64,000 nt of DNA from Planctomycetota bacterium (GCA_038746835.1 JBCDKH010000001.1:1-64000), one strand, 5' to 3'; counted from the first letter of the stretch, positions 52,593 to 62,311 are shown. Translations and numbers: made by a program. Notes: generated from the letters alone by a model not told the origin.

Positions 52593-53993
52593 TTGGCCGG
52601 CGTGTCTGGTGACCTTTTCCTCCGGCTGCAGTCGCTGCTGGGCCTCGTCGTTCTCCTGGGTGGGCTGTACGGGTTTGGCCTGCTGTACAACCGTCGTCGG
52701 CTTGGCCGCTGGTTCAAGGTGCCGTGGCGTGTCGTCCTACTGGGTATTGGTCTGCAGATCGTGTTTGCCGTGCTGATCTTGCGGACGGGGCCCGGGGCGT
52801 GGGTGTTCGAGCGGCTCAACGACGTCGTTCTCTTGTTGCTGAGTGCGTCGCGCGAGGGAGCCTCGCTGCTCTTCGGCGGCATGGCGACGGGACAGAACGT
52901 GCCGGTGGGCGAGCCGCTGAATCCCGGGAACCCGCTGTTTTCGCCGCTGATTGCCGACACGCAAGCACCGAACTTCGCCGCGGTCGGTGCGTTCTTCGCC
53001 TTCAACATCCTGCCAACGATCATCTTCTTCAGCGCGTTGCTGGCGATCCTCTACCACAGCGGCCTGATGACCTACGTCGTCGGAGGGCTCGCGTGGCTGA
53101 TGCGACGCACGATGGGCACCAGCGGAGCCGAGACGCTGAGTGCGAGTGCGAACGTCTTTGTCGGCCAGACGGAGGCGCCGCTCTTCGTTCGGCCGTTTCT
53201 GCCGCGGATGACGCAGAGCGAGCTGATGGCGGTGATGGTCGGCGGTTTCTCGAACATCGCCAGCGGCGTGCTCGGGGTCTATGCGGGCATGCTCGCCGCG
53301 GTGGAGCTGGGGGCGTTTGCCATTCCGAACGCCGGCAGTCATCTGCTCGCGGCCAGCGTCATCAGCGCACCGGCCGGTCTCGTGTGTGCGAAGCTGCTTT
53401 GGCCAGAGACCGAAGAAGCCGAGACCAGCGGCAAGTCATCGGTGGCCCTGGAGCGGTCCGACGCGAACCTCCTCGACGCCGCCGTCCGAGGCACGCGTGA
53501 CGGCCTGCTCCTCGCGGCGAACGTCGGAGCCGTGCTGATCGTCTTCACCGGGTTCGTCTGGCTCGCGAACGCCGGCATCGGCTACCTCGGCTCGCTCACC
53601 GGACGCGACGACCTGACGCTCCAGTTGCTGCTGGGTTGGGCGCTCGCGCCGGTCGCCTGGCTGTGCGGCGTGCCATGGGCCGACGCGACGGAGGTCGGAT
53701 CGCTTATCGGCATCAAGACCGTTTTGAACGAGTTCTTCGGCTATCTGCAGCTTTCCCAAGGCCTTGCTGCCGCGAATGCGGGTGAGACGTACATCAGTCA
53801 GCGCTCCGCGTTGATTGCCCTCTACGCCATCTGTGGCTTCGCCAACTTCGCGAGTGTCGGCATCCAGATCGGCGGGATCGGCGTGCTCGCGCCTGGCCGT
53901 CGTGCCGATCTTGCGAAGCTGGGACTCGTCGCCATGCTCGGCGGTGCCGTCGCCAGCCTGCTGACTGCGTGTGTCGTCGGCGTTCTGGTCTGA
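52593..53993 (+). CDS. Concentrative nucleoside transporter (CNT/NupC family)
   Basis: The 466-residue protein has the CNT core. FGGMATGQNVPVGEPLNPGN is followed by FFSALLAILYHSGLMTYVV, then MGTSGAETLSASANVFVGQTEAPL, which holds the nucleoside and sodium sites (GTSGAE, QTEAPL). GIKTVLNEFFGYL and ALYAICGFANFASVGIQIGG complete the second half. It imports nucleosides with sodium or protons. The start is TTG 52593 or, more likely, GTG 52602. Confidence 0.93.
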   Translation: MAGVSGDLFLRLQSLLGLVVLLGGLYGFGLLYNRRRLGRWFKVPWRVVLLGIGLQIVFAVLILRTGPGAWVFERLNDVVLLLLSASREGASLLFGGMATGQNVPVGEPLNPGNPLFSPLIADTQAPNFAAVGAFFAFNILPTIIFFSALLAILYHSGLMTYVVGGLAWLMRRTMGTSGAETLSASANVFVGQTEAPLFVRPFLPRMTQSELMAVMVGGFSNIASGVLGVYAGMLAAVELGAFAIPNAGSHLLAASVISAPAGLVCAKLLWPETEEAETSGKSSVALERSDANLLDAAVRGTRDGLLLAANVGAVLIVFTGFVWLANAGIGYLGSLTGRDDLTLQLLLGWALAPVAWLCGVPWADATEVGSLIGIKTVLNEFFGYLQLSQGLAAANAGETYISQRSALIALYAICGFANFASVGIQIGGIGVLAPGRRADLAKLGLVAMLGGAVASLLTACVVGVLV

Positions 53994-58090: not shown

Positions 58091-58999
58091 TCAGAACGGC
58101 GACCTAACCGGAGTTGCGGGAAGTGGTTCGTACGACAACGTCCCAGCATCCGGGTCGCCCACGAAGATGCCGCCGCGGCTCTCAATCATTGGACGCCAAA
58201 CGGCGTAAATCTTAATGATGGCGTCGTTCCATTCAGATAAGGAGCGAACACGTACCTCGAACGGACTTACCAAGTCTCTGATCGTGCGGAGAAGATCATA
58301 CGACACTTTCTTCGCGTCTTTGAGCATGTCCCGCTTTCGCGCGTACTCAAAGACGAATGCCGAGACACCTTCCTCCGTGACGAGCGCACGCGCACCATCT
58401 TCCACTTCATCAACAGTTGGTTCAGACTTCCGTTTGCACTTGAAAATCCGACGCATCACTGGTGACCAGCCGAGAAGTACACCGCATCCGAAGTGGAACA
58501 CATCATGGAAGCGGTAACCATCCTGGATGTGAGAGTTATCGGTGAGCCGGTCACCAATAGAGCTACCATTGTATACGAGGTCAAGCTTGCCCGACACATC
58601 GCGTAGCTCGATCTGAAGATGACGCGGCAGCTGCTCGCTCGACGGATACGCGTGATCAAAGTTGAAGATGATACGACCGGCAGGTTCGGCAGCATCTTGA
58701 TCACCGTACAAGTCGTACAACTTCGCGAGATTTTCCTTCGCGATGTCCTCGATACTAAGATTGTTACGAGAAGCAATTGTTGCGACGTACCACATAATGT
58801 CGCCAAGCTCCTCAGAAACCTGATCTTGGAAAGGGAGGTACGATTTGCCTTCCCTAAGCCATTTCTTGTACTCGCTCAACAGTGAACCGGCTTCTCCCGC
58901 GAGACCAAGTAACGGAATCATGAGGTCACGCACAGGATCTCGGGACCGACGATCCGTCCGTGATGCTTGAGTTTGATACTCGTCAAGTGACATTGTCAT
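58091..58999 (-). CDS. MazG-like nucleotide pyrophosphohydrolase with extra C-terminal domain
   Basis: The start is ATG 58999 (or 58993), directly after the stop of the upstream gene. Of 302 residues, about 25-100 form an all-alpha NTP-pyrophosphohydrolase. IPLLGLAGEAGSLLSEYKKW carries the first metal Glu (36), though the second Glu of the usual ExxE is Ser 39. EELGDIMWYVATIA has Glu 63, Glu 64 and Asp 67. Such enzymes cut dNTP or NTP to NMP and PPi. The C-terminal 200 residues (GYRFHDVFHFGCGVLLGW; ALVTEEGVSAFVFEYA) are not MazG and I do not recognise them. It is the last gene of the island operon. Confidence 0.82.
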   Translation of the reverse strand: MTMSLDEYQTQASRTDRRSRDPVRDLMIPLLGLAGEAGSLLSEYKKWLREGKSYLPFQDQVSEELGDIMWYVATIASRNNLSIEDIAKENLAKLYDLYGDQDAAEPAGRIIFNFDHAYPSSEQLPRHLQIELRDVSGKLDLVYNGSSIGDRLTDNSHIQDGYRFHDVFHFGCGVLLGWSPVMRRIFKCKRKSEPTVDEVEDGARALVTEEGVSAFVFEYARKRDMLKDAKKVSYDLLRTIRDLVSPFEVRVRSLSEWNDAIIKIYAVWRPMIESRGGIFVGDPDAGTLSYEPLPATPVRSPF

Positions 59000-59000
59000 T

Positions 59001-59786
59001 TCAAATTTCCTTCCTGATCGAACTTGCAAGGCTCGCGAGCGACGCCTTCGAACTGTCGCCGAGTGTCGGTCTATTAACAAATACCTGTAACCGCGCGAAC
59101 TTAAGCCCGGCGCAATGAGCTAAAGCCAAGCCGAGATGGCAAAGGCCAAGGTAGTTACCGTAGGCTCTCTCAAAAACGTATTGGGTTGGGTAGAAAGCGG
59201 TGACATCCAACTCCCCATCGTCAGTAAGACCGATAGCGACCTGCTGTAAACACGGAAAGCCGCGTACAGCTTGACCAGTATGGTCCCTCAATGGATCCAA
59301 CACGGCAATCTGAGTCGCAGAGTGTCGTGGCCGTTTGCTTGAGCGAGTCAGAAGATGCACGATGTGTGCCAACTGATTAACTTCTGTTGTTGAATGCACA
59401 TCACGCTGCTCCCAAGCCATCATCCGGGAGAAATAAGTACCGTGTACGTTTCGCCGATCTAGCTTTTTCAGCCGCGGGAGAACCCTCTTCGTGCAGGTGC
59501 TGCCAAAGCTCGTCATATCAGGCCGACCCCGCCTCACCCACATTTTGTACGGAAATATCGTAAATGCCGTGGAGTCAACAGACACCGCATCCTGTTGAAA
59601 AAGCGCCTGCTCTAGCGCGGACCGAATTGCCGGTACTTCCTTCGCACTCGACTGTCCGTCTTGATCGATGGAAAGCAAGAGGGGCGGCGTAGAGCGCTTC
59701 GGCAAGTCGAGGAGCGAGATGAAGAGCTCTCCCCATGCGTGCGAGACGCTGTTGCGGCTAATTATAATCGGGTTACTTGCCATCAT
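59001..59786 (-). CDS. Thymidylate synthase-fold protein
   Basis: Of 261 residues, the second half follows thymidylate synthase: HGTYFSRMMAW, EVNQLAHIVHLLTRSSK, IAVLDPLRD, then GFPCLQQVAIG with Cys 179 in the place of the catalytic Cys. DDGELDVTAFYPTQYVFERA and GNYLGLCHLGLALAHCAGLK follow. The canonical R-S-x-D after the Cys strand and the C-terminal folate-binding end are not present, so the substrate may differ from dUMP. It overlaps the metalloprotease gene by 14 bases. A role in making or sensing a pyrimidine nucleotide is inferred from fold and neighbours. Confidence 0.7.
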   Translation of the reverse strand: MMASNPIIISRNSVSHAWGELFISLLDLPKRSTPPLLLSIDQDGQSSAKEVPAIRSALEQALFQQDAVSVDSTAFTIFPYKMWVRRGRPDMTSFGSTCTKRVLPRLKKLDRRNVHGTYFSRMMAWEQRDVHSTTEVNQLAHIVHLLTRSSKRPRHSATQIAVLDPLRDHTGQAVRGFPCLQQVAIGLTDDGELDVTAFYPTQYVFERAYGNYLGLCHLGLALAHCAGLKFARLQVFVNRPTLGDSSKASLASLASSIRKEI

Positions 59787-60642
59787 TCAGCGGCTCTTCA
59801 AGAAATCGGTTCTCATACGGGCCGACATAGTGTTTCCGAGCGGTACGGATCGAAAGGTAGACGCCATTATTTAGTCGCAACCGATGGGTCCCTACGATCT
59901 TTGCGACGCCCAAGGGAACCTGGCAACCGCTCAGCATCTCCAATGCAGTTTGGGCTTGCTCAGGATGCGCTCCGACAAATGCGACACGATCGCCGACTTC
60001 GAGGTCTAGCGTCGCGGCCGAGTAGGCCTCGTCCACTACAAGATCGATCTCAGTATTGCCGGTCTGAAGCTCGCTGCGGATGGACTTCGGCGACGACTTT
60101 TTAAGGGCGCGGTACTGTGCGTCGTTAAGGATTTTCAAGGCGAAGTGCGAGTGCGTCAGTAGAGTTGTGTAGCCTACGCCGAGTTCTGTCGCAGTAACAA
60201 GAACCTCGAGCGGTGACACAGCGGACGGTGTACAACCCCGGCGAGCGAAGGCAGCGAGCACTGCGGGCCGTGGCATCATCAAGAATGCTGCGAAGATATC
60301 GGCCTGATACTCTTCTTTGGTACGGTGTTGGGTGTCCTTTTCAATGAGAAATCGATCGGCAGTAGTCCCATGATTCAGCTGTTGATGCCCAAGCTCGTGA
60401 GCACATGTCATACGCAGGCGAAAGACCGGACGATGCTCGGTGCTCGGGACAAATATCCGGAGTCCTGGATCACGTACGAACATCCCCTCAAGAGATGGGG
60501 TATCTAGAAATCGTAGATCGACCCCAGTCATCTGAGCGATGTTAAAGGAGTTGACGGGTTGTGTTCGCTGTATTGCTAGGTGACGACGAAGCTCCATGGC
60601 AGTCCGCTGTGCCACCCACCCAAGAGCGCGGCGGTTGCTCAT
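59773..60642 (-). CDS. ImmA/IrrE family metallo-endopeptidase
   Basis: The 289-residue protein has the zinc motif in MTCAHELGHQQLNHG (H82, E83, H86). EEYQADIFAAFLMMPRP gives the downstream Glu-x-x-A-D helix of the ImmA/IrrE family. Residues 25-70 match the family N-terminal part. The C-terminal 100 residues (VVDEAYSAATLDLEVGDRVAF) are a separate small domain. These proteases cut XRE-type repressors to start expression, as ImmA does with ImmR. The XRE gene directly upstream overlaps it as ATGA, a typical pair. Confidence 0.92.
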   Translation of the reverse strand: MSNRRALGWVAQRTAMELRRHLAIQRTQPVNSFNIAQMTGVDLRFLDTPSLEGMFVRDPGLRIFVPSTEHRPVFRLRMTCAHELGHQQLNHGTTADRFLIEKDTQHRTKEEYQADIFAAFLMMPRPAVLAAFARRGCTPSAVSPLEVLVTATELGVGYTTLLTHSHFALKILNDAQYRALKKSSPKSIRSELQTGNTEIDLVVDEAYSAATLDLEVGDRVAFVGAHPEQAQTALEMLSGCQVPLGVAKIVGTHRLRLNNGVYLSIRTARKHYVGPYENRFLEEPLNDGK

Positions 60643-60989
60643 TCCTCCTCCCGGTCTGCACGCAAGACCTGGATAAGCCTCAGAATCGCGTCTAAATCTT
60701 TCTGCTGAAGCTTTCCAAGCTCTCTAGCGGCAAGGAGAATTCTCGGATCACGCTCGCCTTCGAGCGCATCGTCACCCTTAATAAGCCAGGACTCTTTGAC
60801 GCCATAAATGTCGGCAAGCCGCGACAGCTCCTCAGTTTTCACGTTCCTTTGCCCACTTTCGATCTGTGAGATTGTGGGCCGGTGAACGTCGATTTTCTTT
60901 GCCACCTGCCCCTGAGAGAGCCCAGCCTGTTCCCTCGCCCAACGGAGTCGCCGAGCCAGAGCTTGCTTGCCTGTCGTCTCGTCATTCAT
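60639..60989 (-). CDS. XRE-family transcriptional regulator
   Basis: I use the ATG at 60989, which overlaps the upstream stop (ATGA) and has GGAGGGAGT before it. The 116 residues are one helix-turn-helix (LRWAREQAGLSQGQVAKKID and VHRPTISQIESGQRN). A C-terminal helix pair rich in charged residues (DLDAILRLIQVLRADREEE) follows. It is the likely repressor of the operon, acting at the palindrome at 61293-61309 and removed by the metalloprotease encoded next. Confidence 0.92.
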   Translation of the reverse strand: MNDETTGKQALARRLRWAREQAGLSQGQVAKKIDVHRPTISQIESGQRNVKTEELSRLADIYGVKESWLIKGDDALEGERDPRILLAARELGKLQQKDLDAILRLIQVLRADREEE

Positions 60990-61276
60990 ACTCCCTCCGT
61001 CGCTGGAGCTACCCATTTCTGCGCGAAACGCACTAACTCTCCAAATTTCATGCCTCTCTTACCGTTGGGGTGTACAAGCGGATTGAAATCGTGGGGGACG
61101 TCGGATCCGAGCGCTTCAGAAATCTCAAGCGCCAAGTCGACGCCTTCGTCACTTGATGCCTCCGTCGTGTGTAGAAGATCCACGTCGTCGTCGAGATCGG
61201 GCACGGGGTGACCAGACATCTCCATGAAGTCGCAGATACAGGACTTCAGCCGACTGGACACCTCATCCTTCGTCAT
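60986..61276 (-). CDS. Small acyl-carrier-protein-like protein, first gene of island operon
   Basis: The 96 residues are acidic and helical. DLDDDVDLLHTTEASSDEGV followed by DLALEISEALGSDVP aligns with helix II of acyl carrier proteins: the second Ser of ASSD falls where the phosphopantetheine Ser of DSL stands, although the Asp is changed to Ser. GMKFGELVRFAQKWV fits the last helix. AAAGGATC lies before the ATG. If it is a carrier, the acyl group and partner enzymes are unknown. The family assignment rests on pattern only. Confidence 0.6.
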   Translation of the reverse strand: MTKDEVSSRLKSCICDFMEMSGHPVPDLDDDVDLLHTTEASSDEGVDLALEISEALGSDVPHDFNPLVHPNGKRGMKFGELVRFAQKWVAPATEGV

Positions 61277-61292: not shown

Positions 61293-61329
61293 GGTAAGAT
61301 ATTCTTACCACCTTGATCGTGGTTGTCAA
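61293..61329 (-). promoter_or_regulatory. Island operon promoter with palindromic operator
   Basis: On the minus strand TTGACA (61329-61324) and AAGAAT (61306-61301) are separated by 17 bases. A perfect palindrome, GGTAAGA-TAT-TCTTACC (61293-61309), covers the -10 box and the start point. A second inverted repeat, ACCAC-N7-GTGGT, fills the spacer at 61307-61323. This placement is that of a repressor operator. The -35 box overlaps the DUF1643 stop codon. Confidence 0.75.
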
Positions 61330-61802
61330 ACCGCCAGCACAAGCGGTTCTGCCTTCTGCGGGAGATAGAGGGGGTGTCGAGGGTGACCGCGTTGCGTTGT
61401 GCCGAGACAATGAGGCTTGTGCAACAGCTCGAGGACGGTCTGATCCCGGTCGAGATAGGCTCCACGAGCTCCCCAAGCCGCGACAGTCAGCTTTGCCTCC
61501 GAAGATACTCGTCGAATCCACCGATCGTTCGCGGGGCCAACTGGGTCAAGCGAGCAGAGCAGAGCGGCTGGGTTCGTACTTCGGTAGGCGAAAAGATTGA
61601 CCAGGATCAGGCCGTCGAACCCCCATCGCTTTCCGAAACCGACGCATCGCCGCACGGTCGCGTCATCATGATGTGCGTCAGCAGTCGACGGATTCAGCCC
61701 AACGAACAGCACCGACGAATCTCCAGATCCCCAATGCCGTCTCAGCACGTAGCGGTATCTCTTGCAACGGGAAAGATTGGCCGACCGCGCTCTTACCGCC
61801 AT
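61326..61802 (-). CDS. DUF1643 family protein
   Basis: The 158-residue protein matches the DUF1643 pattern throughout: YRYVLRRHWG, VLFVGLNPSTAD, TVRRCVGFGKRWGFDGLILV, NLFAYRSTNPAAL and VAAWGARG. The family has no established activity and is common on plasmids and islands; the fold may relate to uracil-DNA-glycosylase-like or other base-handling enzymes, which I cannot confirm. It ends inside the -35 box of the island promoter, on the same strand, so it may be transcribed separately and read into the operon. Confidence 0.85.
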   Translation of the reverse strand: MAVRARSANLSRCKRYRYVLRRHWGSGDSSVLFVGLNPSTADAHHDDATVRRCVGFGKRWGFDGLILVNLFAYRSTNPAALLCSLDPVGPANDRWIRRVSSEAKLTVAAWGARGAYLDRDQTVLELLHKPHCLGTTQRGHPRHPLYLPQKAEPLVLAV

Positions 61803-62059
61803 CTCCGCTGAACTTCGCGGCTCTTGCTAATCGCGTCAAGTGTGGCCTGCTTGACACGCCCGGTGCCCGGTGTCGCTGCTCGGAGCGTAGTTCGGTCGGG
61901 GCGGGTGGTCGAAGGCACTACGCTGCGTCCAGTGGCACCGAAGTGGTGGGCCGAATCCACCCTACCAGGGTTTCGGGTCGTCGTCGGCGAACTGGGTGAG
62001 TGCGGCGGTTCCGCGGCAGCGAAGTCGGAGGCGTATGCAGCCCCGGGAGCAGTTGGGAC

Positions 62060-62311
62060 ACCGGTGTTCGGCGTCAATCCACCGGTGTCGACGTTCCAAG
62101 CACCGGTGTTTGGGTCTCATCTACCGGTATTTACGGTTCATCCACCGGTGTTTGGAACTCATCCTCCGGTGTTTGAACTTGGTTCACCGGTGTATCGAGT
62201 TCATCCACCGGTGTTTGCGGTTCATCCACCGGTGTTTGAAGTGTGAATACCGGTGTTTGGAATCGAAACACCGGTGTTTGAAGTTCAAACACCGGTGGTG
62301 GAGGGTCCGAT
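62060..62311. repeat. Tandem array of 12 units with exact 21-bp period and ACCGGT core
   Basis: ACCGGT begins at 62060, 62081, 62102, 62123, 62144, 62165 (TCCGGT), 62186, 62207, 62228, 62249, 62270 and 62291, each exactly 21 bases from the last. The unit is close to ACCGGTGTTTGAAGTTCATCC. The core is a six-base palindrome and is often CACCGGTG. Variation is outside the core. There are no spacers of CRISPR type. Two helical turns per unit would put every core on the same face of DNA. Confidence 0.97.

Follow-up and report, generated by a model that had tools for sequence, protein, structure and literature searches.

In CBASS (cyclic-oligonucleotide-based anti-phage signalling systems) and other immune operons, the CapH+CapP module combines an XRE-type repressor with an M78 metallopeptidase and a promoter palindrome expected for repression, and CapP cleaves its repressor CapH upon binding to single-stranded DNA (ssDNA) (PMC13373217). 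PprI, too, cleaves its repressor upon ssDNA binding (PMC10904395), and ImmR/ImmA of ICEBs1-type elements consists of a repressor and an M78 anti-repressor on mobile DNA. Here we analyse an operon with such a pair at positions 58091-61276 (minus strand) of a 64,000-nucleotide stretch from a Planctomycetota bacterium (GCA_038746835.1 JBCDKH010000001.1:1-64000), the whole of which is referred to as the window. Unlike CapH+CapP, the pair is located within the operon, after the gene for a carrier protein, and is followed by different genes, i.e. those for a divergent protein of the thymidylate synthase (TS) fold, designated Thy, and a MazG-type hydrolase. Unlike ImmR/ImmA, a dedicated operator serves one nucleotide-enzyme operon and no integrase is under its control. 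We propose that the operon encodes a thymine-nucleotide modification pathway that is induced by ssDNA or DNA damage and has a role in defence against phages (or other elements), a proposal whose chances of being right or wrong we hold to be about even.

The effector genes have described counterparts in phages. The pathway of phage PhiW-14 comprises a synthase for 5-hydroxymethyldeoxyuridine (5-hmdU) monophosphate, a dTTPase, 5-hmdU triphosphate and, in the DNA, pyrophosphorylated 5-hydroxymethyluracil (PMC5977210). With phage thymine hypermodification (PhiW-14, SP10, ViI, M6) the wider family of the window operon shares a TS-type synthase, a dTTPase-like hydrolase, a nucleotide kinase, HMUDK_hel (5-hmdU DNA kinase helical domain, PF18723) and a deaminase, and by analogy it would supply the activities of the PhiW-14 pathway. 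In contrast to the phage pathways, however, the family is bacterial, inducible and compact, contains a carrier and the holo-acyl carrier protein synthase AcpS, showed no aGPT-Pplase that we noticed in the loci read, and in the clade of the window has no HMUDK. Deoxynucleotide-depletion defence (dCTP deaminase, dGTPase) likewise targets the pools of deoxynucleoside triphosphates (dNTPs), and a dCTP-deaminase-like companion occurs in 30 of our loci, but here the core is a carrier-associated C5 transferase of the TS fold and not a nucleotide-destroying enzyme. Finally, the DefensePredictor text describes E. coli systems with TS, deoxynucleoside monophosphate (dNMP) kinase, 5-hmdU kinase and NMAD domains for which phage protection was measured, and its predicted defence domains include MazG, MazG-C and uracil-DNA glycosylase (UDG) (PMC13092281). 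In contrast to the operon described here, that text mentions neither a carrier protein nor an ImmA-type protease, and the likeness lies in the kinds of effector domain (PMC13092281). As TS and 5-hmdU kinase domains were validated there, the idea of the effector is partly anticipated (PMC13092281). In the literature searched we found no description of the carrier-switch core, its gene order or its operator.

All five genes were recovered from the DNA, base for base where the sequence-only reading had placed them, together with the tight junctions and the low GC content that it had reported. The acyl carrier protein (ACP)-like carrier (96 aa; 60986-61276) and the XRE/CapH-like repressor (60639-60989) overlap by ATGA at the ACP stop codon, as do the repressor and the M78 (ImmA/IrrE/CapP-like) metallopeptidase (59773-60642). 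The M78 and Thy (59001-59786) genes overlap by 14 bases (59773-59786), and a gap of one base separates Thy from the MazG-MazG_C nucleotide pyrophosphohydrolase (302 aa; 58091-58999), whose ATG lies at 58999. A longer open reading frame (ORF) for the repressor proved to be an artefact; the start is at 60989. The GC content of the 58-61 kb region is 53.5-55.5% vs 60-71% across the remaining window, except for the 61-62 kb bin (58.9%). The same core gene order recurs in about 90 loci from at least 14 phyla, i.e. in unrelated genomes, as the sequence-only reading had anticipated for a true system, and this recurrence is far beyond chance.

In the switch, the repressor contains an HTH_3 domain (Pfam, 5e-19) and its neighbour a Peptidase_M78 domain (1e-9) with an HEXXH motif (60385-60399), the residues H82, E83, H86 and E111 being 97-98% conserved in the family alignment (88 entries). 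In PADLOC the repressor matches capH (2e-11) and the protease capP (1e-14), the capP profile reaching no further than the N-terminal half of the protease. The palindrome GTAAGA-N3-TCTTAC precedes the ACP gene in 75 of 86 entries with upstream DNA (0-1 mismatch; the count includes two sites inside over-long ACP ORFs). Exact copies occur in 14 phyla, and the roughly 1.2 Mb that these loci comprise hold no site, exact or otherwise, at any other position. In the window it reads GGTAAGA-ATA-TCTTACC (61293-61309) and is the sole site with up to one mismatch in the host genome (3.85 Mb). The region contains one promoter-like match, TTGACA-N17-AAGAAT (61301-61329, minus strand), with the -10 box inside the palindrome, and the consensus over the 75 loci is TTGAC-17-TAAGAT. 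By its conservation, the palindrome is the putative operator for the XRE protein at the operon promoter, and both this regulation and the operon architecture are well supported. The dedicated operator also supports the earlier suggestion of a switch for nucleotide enzymes and a carrier, not for excision. By analogy to CapH/CapP and PprI we infer that repressor cleavage by the pair in the window would be activated by ssDNA. A third half-site, GTAAGA, lies at +20 to +25 from the operator start in most loci and is degenerate in the window; it may bind a second repressor dimer. Two loci (L016 and L056; L numbers denote our loci) carry an additional M78 gene upstream of the operon.

To assess the spread of the operon, a profile of seven Thy proteins was run against 84,980 species genomes; it matched at 133 places, of which 80 were kept. 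Cultured bacteria among the sources of the loci are Paraburkholderia xenovorans LB400 (L036) and Bradyrhizobium BTAi1 (L063). With plasmid records, relatives and one viral contig, 91 entries were examined, the window being counted twice (L001, WIN) and L002 and L012 being the same gene. ACP-XRE-M78-Thy forms an unbroken run in all entries that no contig end truncates (about 86 loci with upstream DNA), on chromosomes and plasmids of at least 14 phyla, the exception being a third branch, in which a C1 peptidase lies between M78 and Thy. Among relatives of the host the Thy gene is present in 2/61 genomes, with MazG_C in the same two, and in 4/392 sampled genomes of the phylum; in the host's family, the second genome with the operon has all five genes in identical order and a Thy identity of about 48%. 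The host genome contains no PF00303 ThyA, and its dTMP synthase is a ThyX encoded on another contig. The possibility that these are housekeeping copies, named by the sequence-only reading as one of two findings that would overturn it, is thus rejected. With 14 phylum groups, the Thy tree requires 23 label changes where 13 would be the minimum, and it places the window with Planctomycetota, one unplaced metagenome-assembled genome and one viral contig (99% support in the Shimodaira-Hasegawa-like approximate likelihood-ratio test), which fits, but does not prove, horizontal spread. Judged by these comparisons, the operon is part of a rare yet widely spread conserved bacterial system. The same data bear on the idea of a DNA-damage stress or nucleotide-sanitation operon without defence role, akin to a small, horizontally spread DdrO/PprI regulon: XRE-M78 pairs act in damage responses too (PMC10904395) and the host has a single dedicated operator, but the very sparse, mosaic distribution, the neighbours typical of mobile and defence islands and enzymes of the phage modification type make it rather improbable.

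Thy has no match in Pfam, PF00303 included, and only weakly matches TIGR03283. The TS fold that had been claimed for it is nevertheless borne out by the AlphaFold model (pLDDT 94.8), which matches TS in the PDB with an E-value of 2e-9, and also the CMP hydroxymethylase MilA, a phage dCMP hydroxylase and a viral dCMP hydroxymethylase (8e-9). In an hhalign comparison with the canonical ThyA set of these loci (4.6e-5), Cys179 (codon 59250-59252) corresponds to the catalytic Cys and Asn211 to the base-specific Asn, and both are 100% conserved across the family alignment. The RSxD phosphate-binding motif of canonical TS is absent, with TQxxFxRAYGN in its place, so Thy is a member of the superfamily (TS/pyrimidine hydroxymethylase) and not a ThyA.

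In the carrier, Ser42 (codon 61151-61153) is the predicted phosphopantetheine site: it falls in the alignment column of the phosphopantetheine serine, where 98% of the 88 family entries have a Ser, often in GFDSL. The window protein does not match Pfam PP-binding, and its homologue in L003 falls short of the cut-off (E 0.026). AcpS lies close by in 39 loci and on another contig in the host; since its gene mostly runs towards the operon from the opposite strand, AcpS is not part of the operator-controlled unit. The group to be attached is probably tethered by the carrier. These features could also belong to a pathway for a diffusible modified nucleoside or signalling nucleotide, in which an acyl or aminoacyl block would be loaded on the carrier, as happens in clusters for nucleoside antibiotics. 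The Thy fold is, by TM-score, as near to MilA as to TS, and assembly-line chemistry typically employs an ACP together with AcpS. However, no recurrent ligase, transferase or exporter is found in the neighbourhoods, and we regard such a product as very improbable.

The genes downstream of Thy vary. In the window MazG protein (Pfam MazG_C 7e-64, MazG 1e-4; EExxD intact), the MazG part has its nearest PDB neighbours in dCTP pyrophosphatase 1, YpjD and similar MazG proteins. Across the loci HMUDK_hel is the most frequent partner (80), followed by MazG-MazG_C (63), AcpS (39), the dCTP-deaminase-like protein (30), a second, canonical ThyA (21) and DUF1643 (11). The resemblance to dCTP pyrophosphatase 1 and the dCTP-deaminase-like gene would suit a depletion mechanism, in which MazG, together with the deaminase in loci that have it, would break down dNTPs in the infected cell and the TS-fold protein would serve for regulation or sensing. 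Yet, among the 80 loci with at least 4 kb of downstream DNA, 57 contain MazG and 23 do not, and the second ThyA is found in 18 of these 23 vs 2 of the 57; a thymidylate kinase (TMK), separate or fused to HMUDK, accompanies it in 17 of the 18. Moreover, depletion needs neither a carrier nor AcpS, and the catalytic Cys is invariant, so we give this explanation little chance. The wider family points less to simple depletion than to phage-type thymine modification. Relatives of HMUDK_hel were found in 488 phage records, many from Salmonella, Pseudomonas and Klebsiella phages, one match overlapping a gene annotated as alpha-glutamyl/putrescinyl thymine pyrophosphorylase. HMUDK_hel is fused behind a thymidylate-kinase P-loop domain in L013 (8665-10377) and 14 other loci, mostly those with a second ThyA in place of MazG. 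The AlphaFold model of HMUDK from L036 is all-helical with high confidence and has no confident match in the PDB; several of its weak matches, which are to DNA glycosylases (2h56, 3knt, 2i5w) or the queuine salvage enzyme, are a lead only.

On this basis we suggest that in the resting cell the XRE protein would occupy GTAAGA-N3-TCTTAC and cover the -10 box, keeping the operon off. DNA damage, or ssDNA from phage replication, would activate the M78 protease and lead to cleavage of the repressor, and the derepressed operon would provide the carrier, which AcpS may convert to its phosphopantetheinylated form. Thy would then build a one-carbon or larger C5 substituent on a dU (or dC) nucleotide, the MazG-type hydrolase would clear competing normal dNTPs, and the pathway may be completed by the 5-hmdU-kinase-type helical protein in most relatives and by a TMP kinase, a second TS and a dCTP deaminase in some. 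Replication in the induced cell would place abnormal thymine in the DNA, so that phage DNA may be ruined or exposed to base excision. A more specific version, which we put forward only tentatively, is that the holo-ACP passes an activated group to Thy, and that the resulting new C5-substituted deoxyuridine nucleotide is an antimetabolite that poisons phage DNA. The gene set, operator, catalytic residues and spread are established as far as comparison reaches; the trigger, the chemistry and its product, the load of the carrier and the defence role we infer. The sequence-only reading thus stands in part: the conserved order and the non-housekeeping nature held, the target of the switch is supported, and the defence role and the direction of the nucleotide chemistry keep the status of proposals.

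Several points weigh against modification-based defence. We know of no described nucleotide-modification pathway with an acyl carrier protein. As Thy lacks the RSxD motif, its substrate may not be a dNMP. HMUDK and TMK are absent from the window operon, and HMUDK is not encoded elsewhere in the host genome either, so this host lacks the complete pathway; the product of the window operon may be simpler, or its action may rest mainly on Thy and MazG. Finally, the enrichment of defence genes in the flanks of chromosomal loci, which include AbiE, GajA/OLD and MmeI besides integrases, lacks a matched control, and some AbiE matches are near-duplicates.

Where plasmids carry the core, they are mostly conjugative, and neighbours include Shedu (L095), SIR2 (L006) and ABC-three-component (L004) systems. 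In two phage-like contigs of the window's clade the operon lies between terminase and portal: L090 (2407-12592) has terminase (GpA), DUF1643, operon, portal and capsid consecutively, and in L010 (1813-10140) the operon is in reverse orientation, a position like a cargo site. These settings, together with the use of HMUDK_hel and TS-type enzymes by phages as anti-restriction tools, could indicate that the pathway marks the DNA of its own plasmid or prophage so that it escapes restriction, as in phage hypermodification. We consider this unlikely: a tight, damage-type repression is ill-suited to a constitutive protective mark, the majority of loci are not on recognised phages, and the window Thy has no match in 50,697 phage records and a single one in 2.9 million viral contigs. 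On the same counts we reject a phage origin of the core.

If modification-based defence is correct, bacteria hold in reserve an enzyme kit of the kind with which phages disguise their DNA, to be turned on once DNA damage betrays an infection. With a carrier protein, such a pathway would mean new nucleic-acid chemistry and could yield an unknown DNA base. Carrier-dependent immunity would be, to our knowledge, the first defence based on DNA modification or on nucleotides to use thiotemplate (phosphopantetheine) chemistry, under one repressor-operator code maintained across at least 14 phyla. The strict operator makes trigger and regulon directly testable. In PADLOC 2.0.0 only XRE and M78 match a model, and Thy, MazG, ACP and DUF1643 do not; the system is missing from this catalogue, so scans with it overlook the system in at least 14 phyla.

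The DUF1643 protein, the operator, the HMUDK, AcpS, dCTP-deaminase and UDG partners and the cargo position in prophages go beyond the sequence-only reading. The DUF1643 gene (158 aa; 61326-61802; Pfam 3e-45) is the sixth on the minus strand, immediately upstream of the five genes and outside the operator-controlled unit. Its 11 loci include the window's clade, and in L010 and L090, where it lies beside the terminase, it is co-oriented with phage genes; thus, it may be an accessory or phage-derived companion and not a part of the system. Its GLNPS and HPRHPLY motifs suggested a relative of UDG, which neither hhalign nor the PDB search supported. A MazG-MazG_C and UDG pair recurs on plasmids (L094, L095, L096, L100); in the third branch (L008, L009, L094, L095) it is convergent and accompanies the extra C1 peptidase, and in L096 and L100 it stands without the ACP core and adjoins several TIR-domain proteins, which suggests a second immune setting. 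Just upstream of DUF1643 the window contains imperfect 21-bp tandem repeats (62059-62297; CACCGGTGTTTG...), each with the palindrome CACCGGTG, and the opposite strand carries, at a distance of about 4 kb from the five genes, the gene for a probably unrelated Na+-dependent nucleoside transporter (52593-53993).

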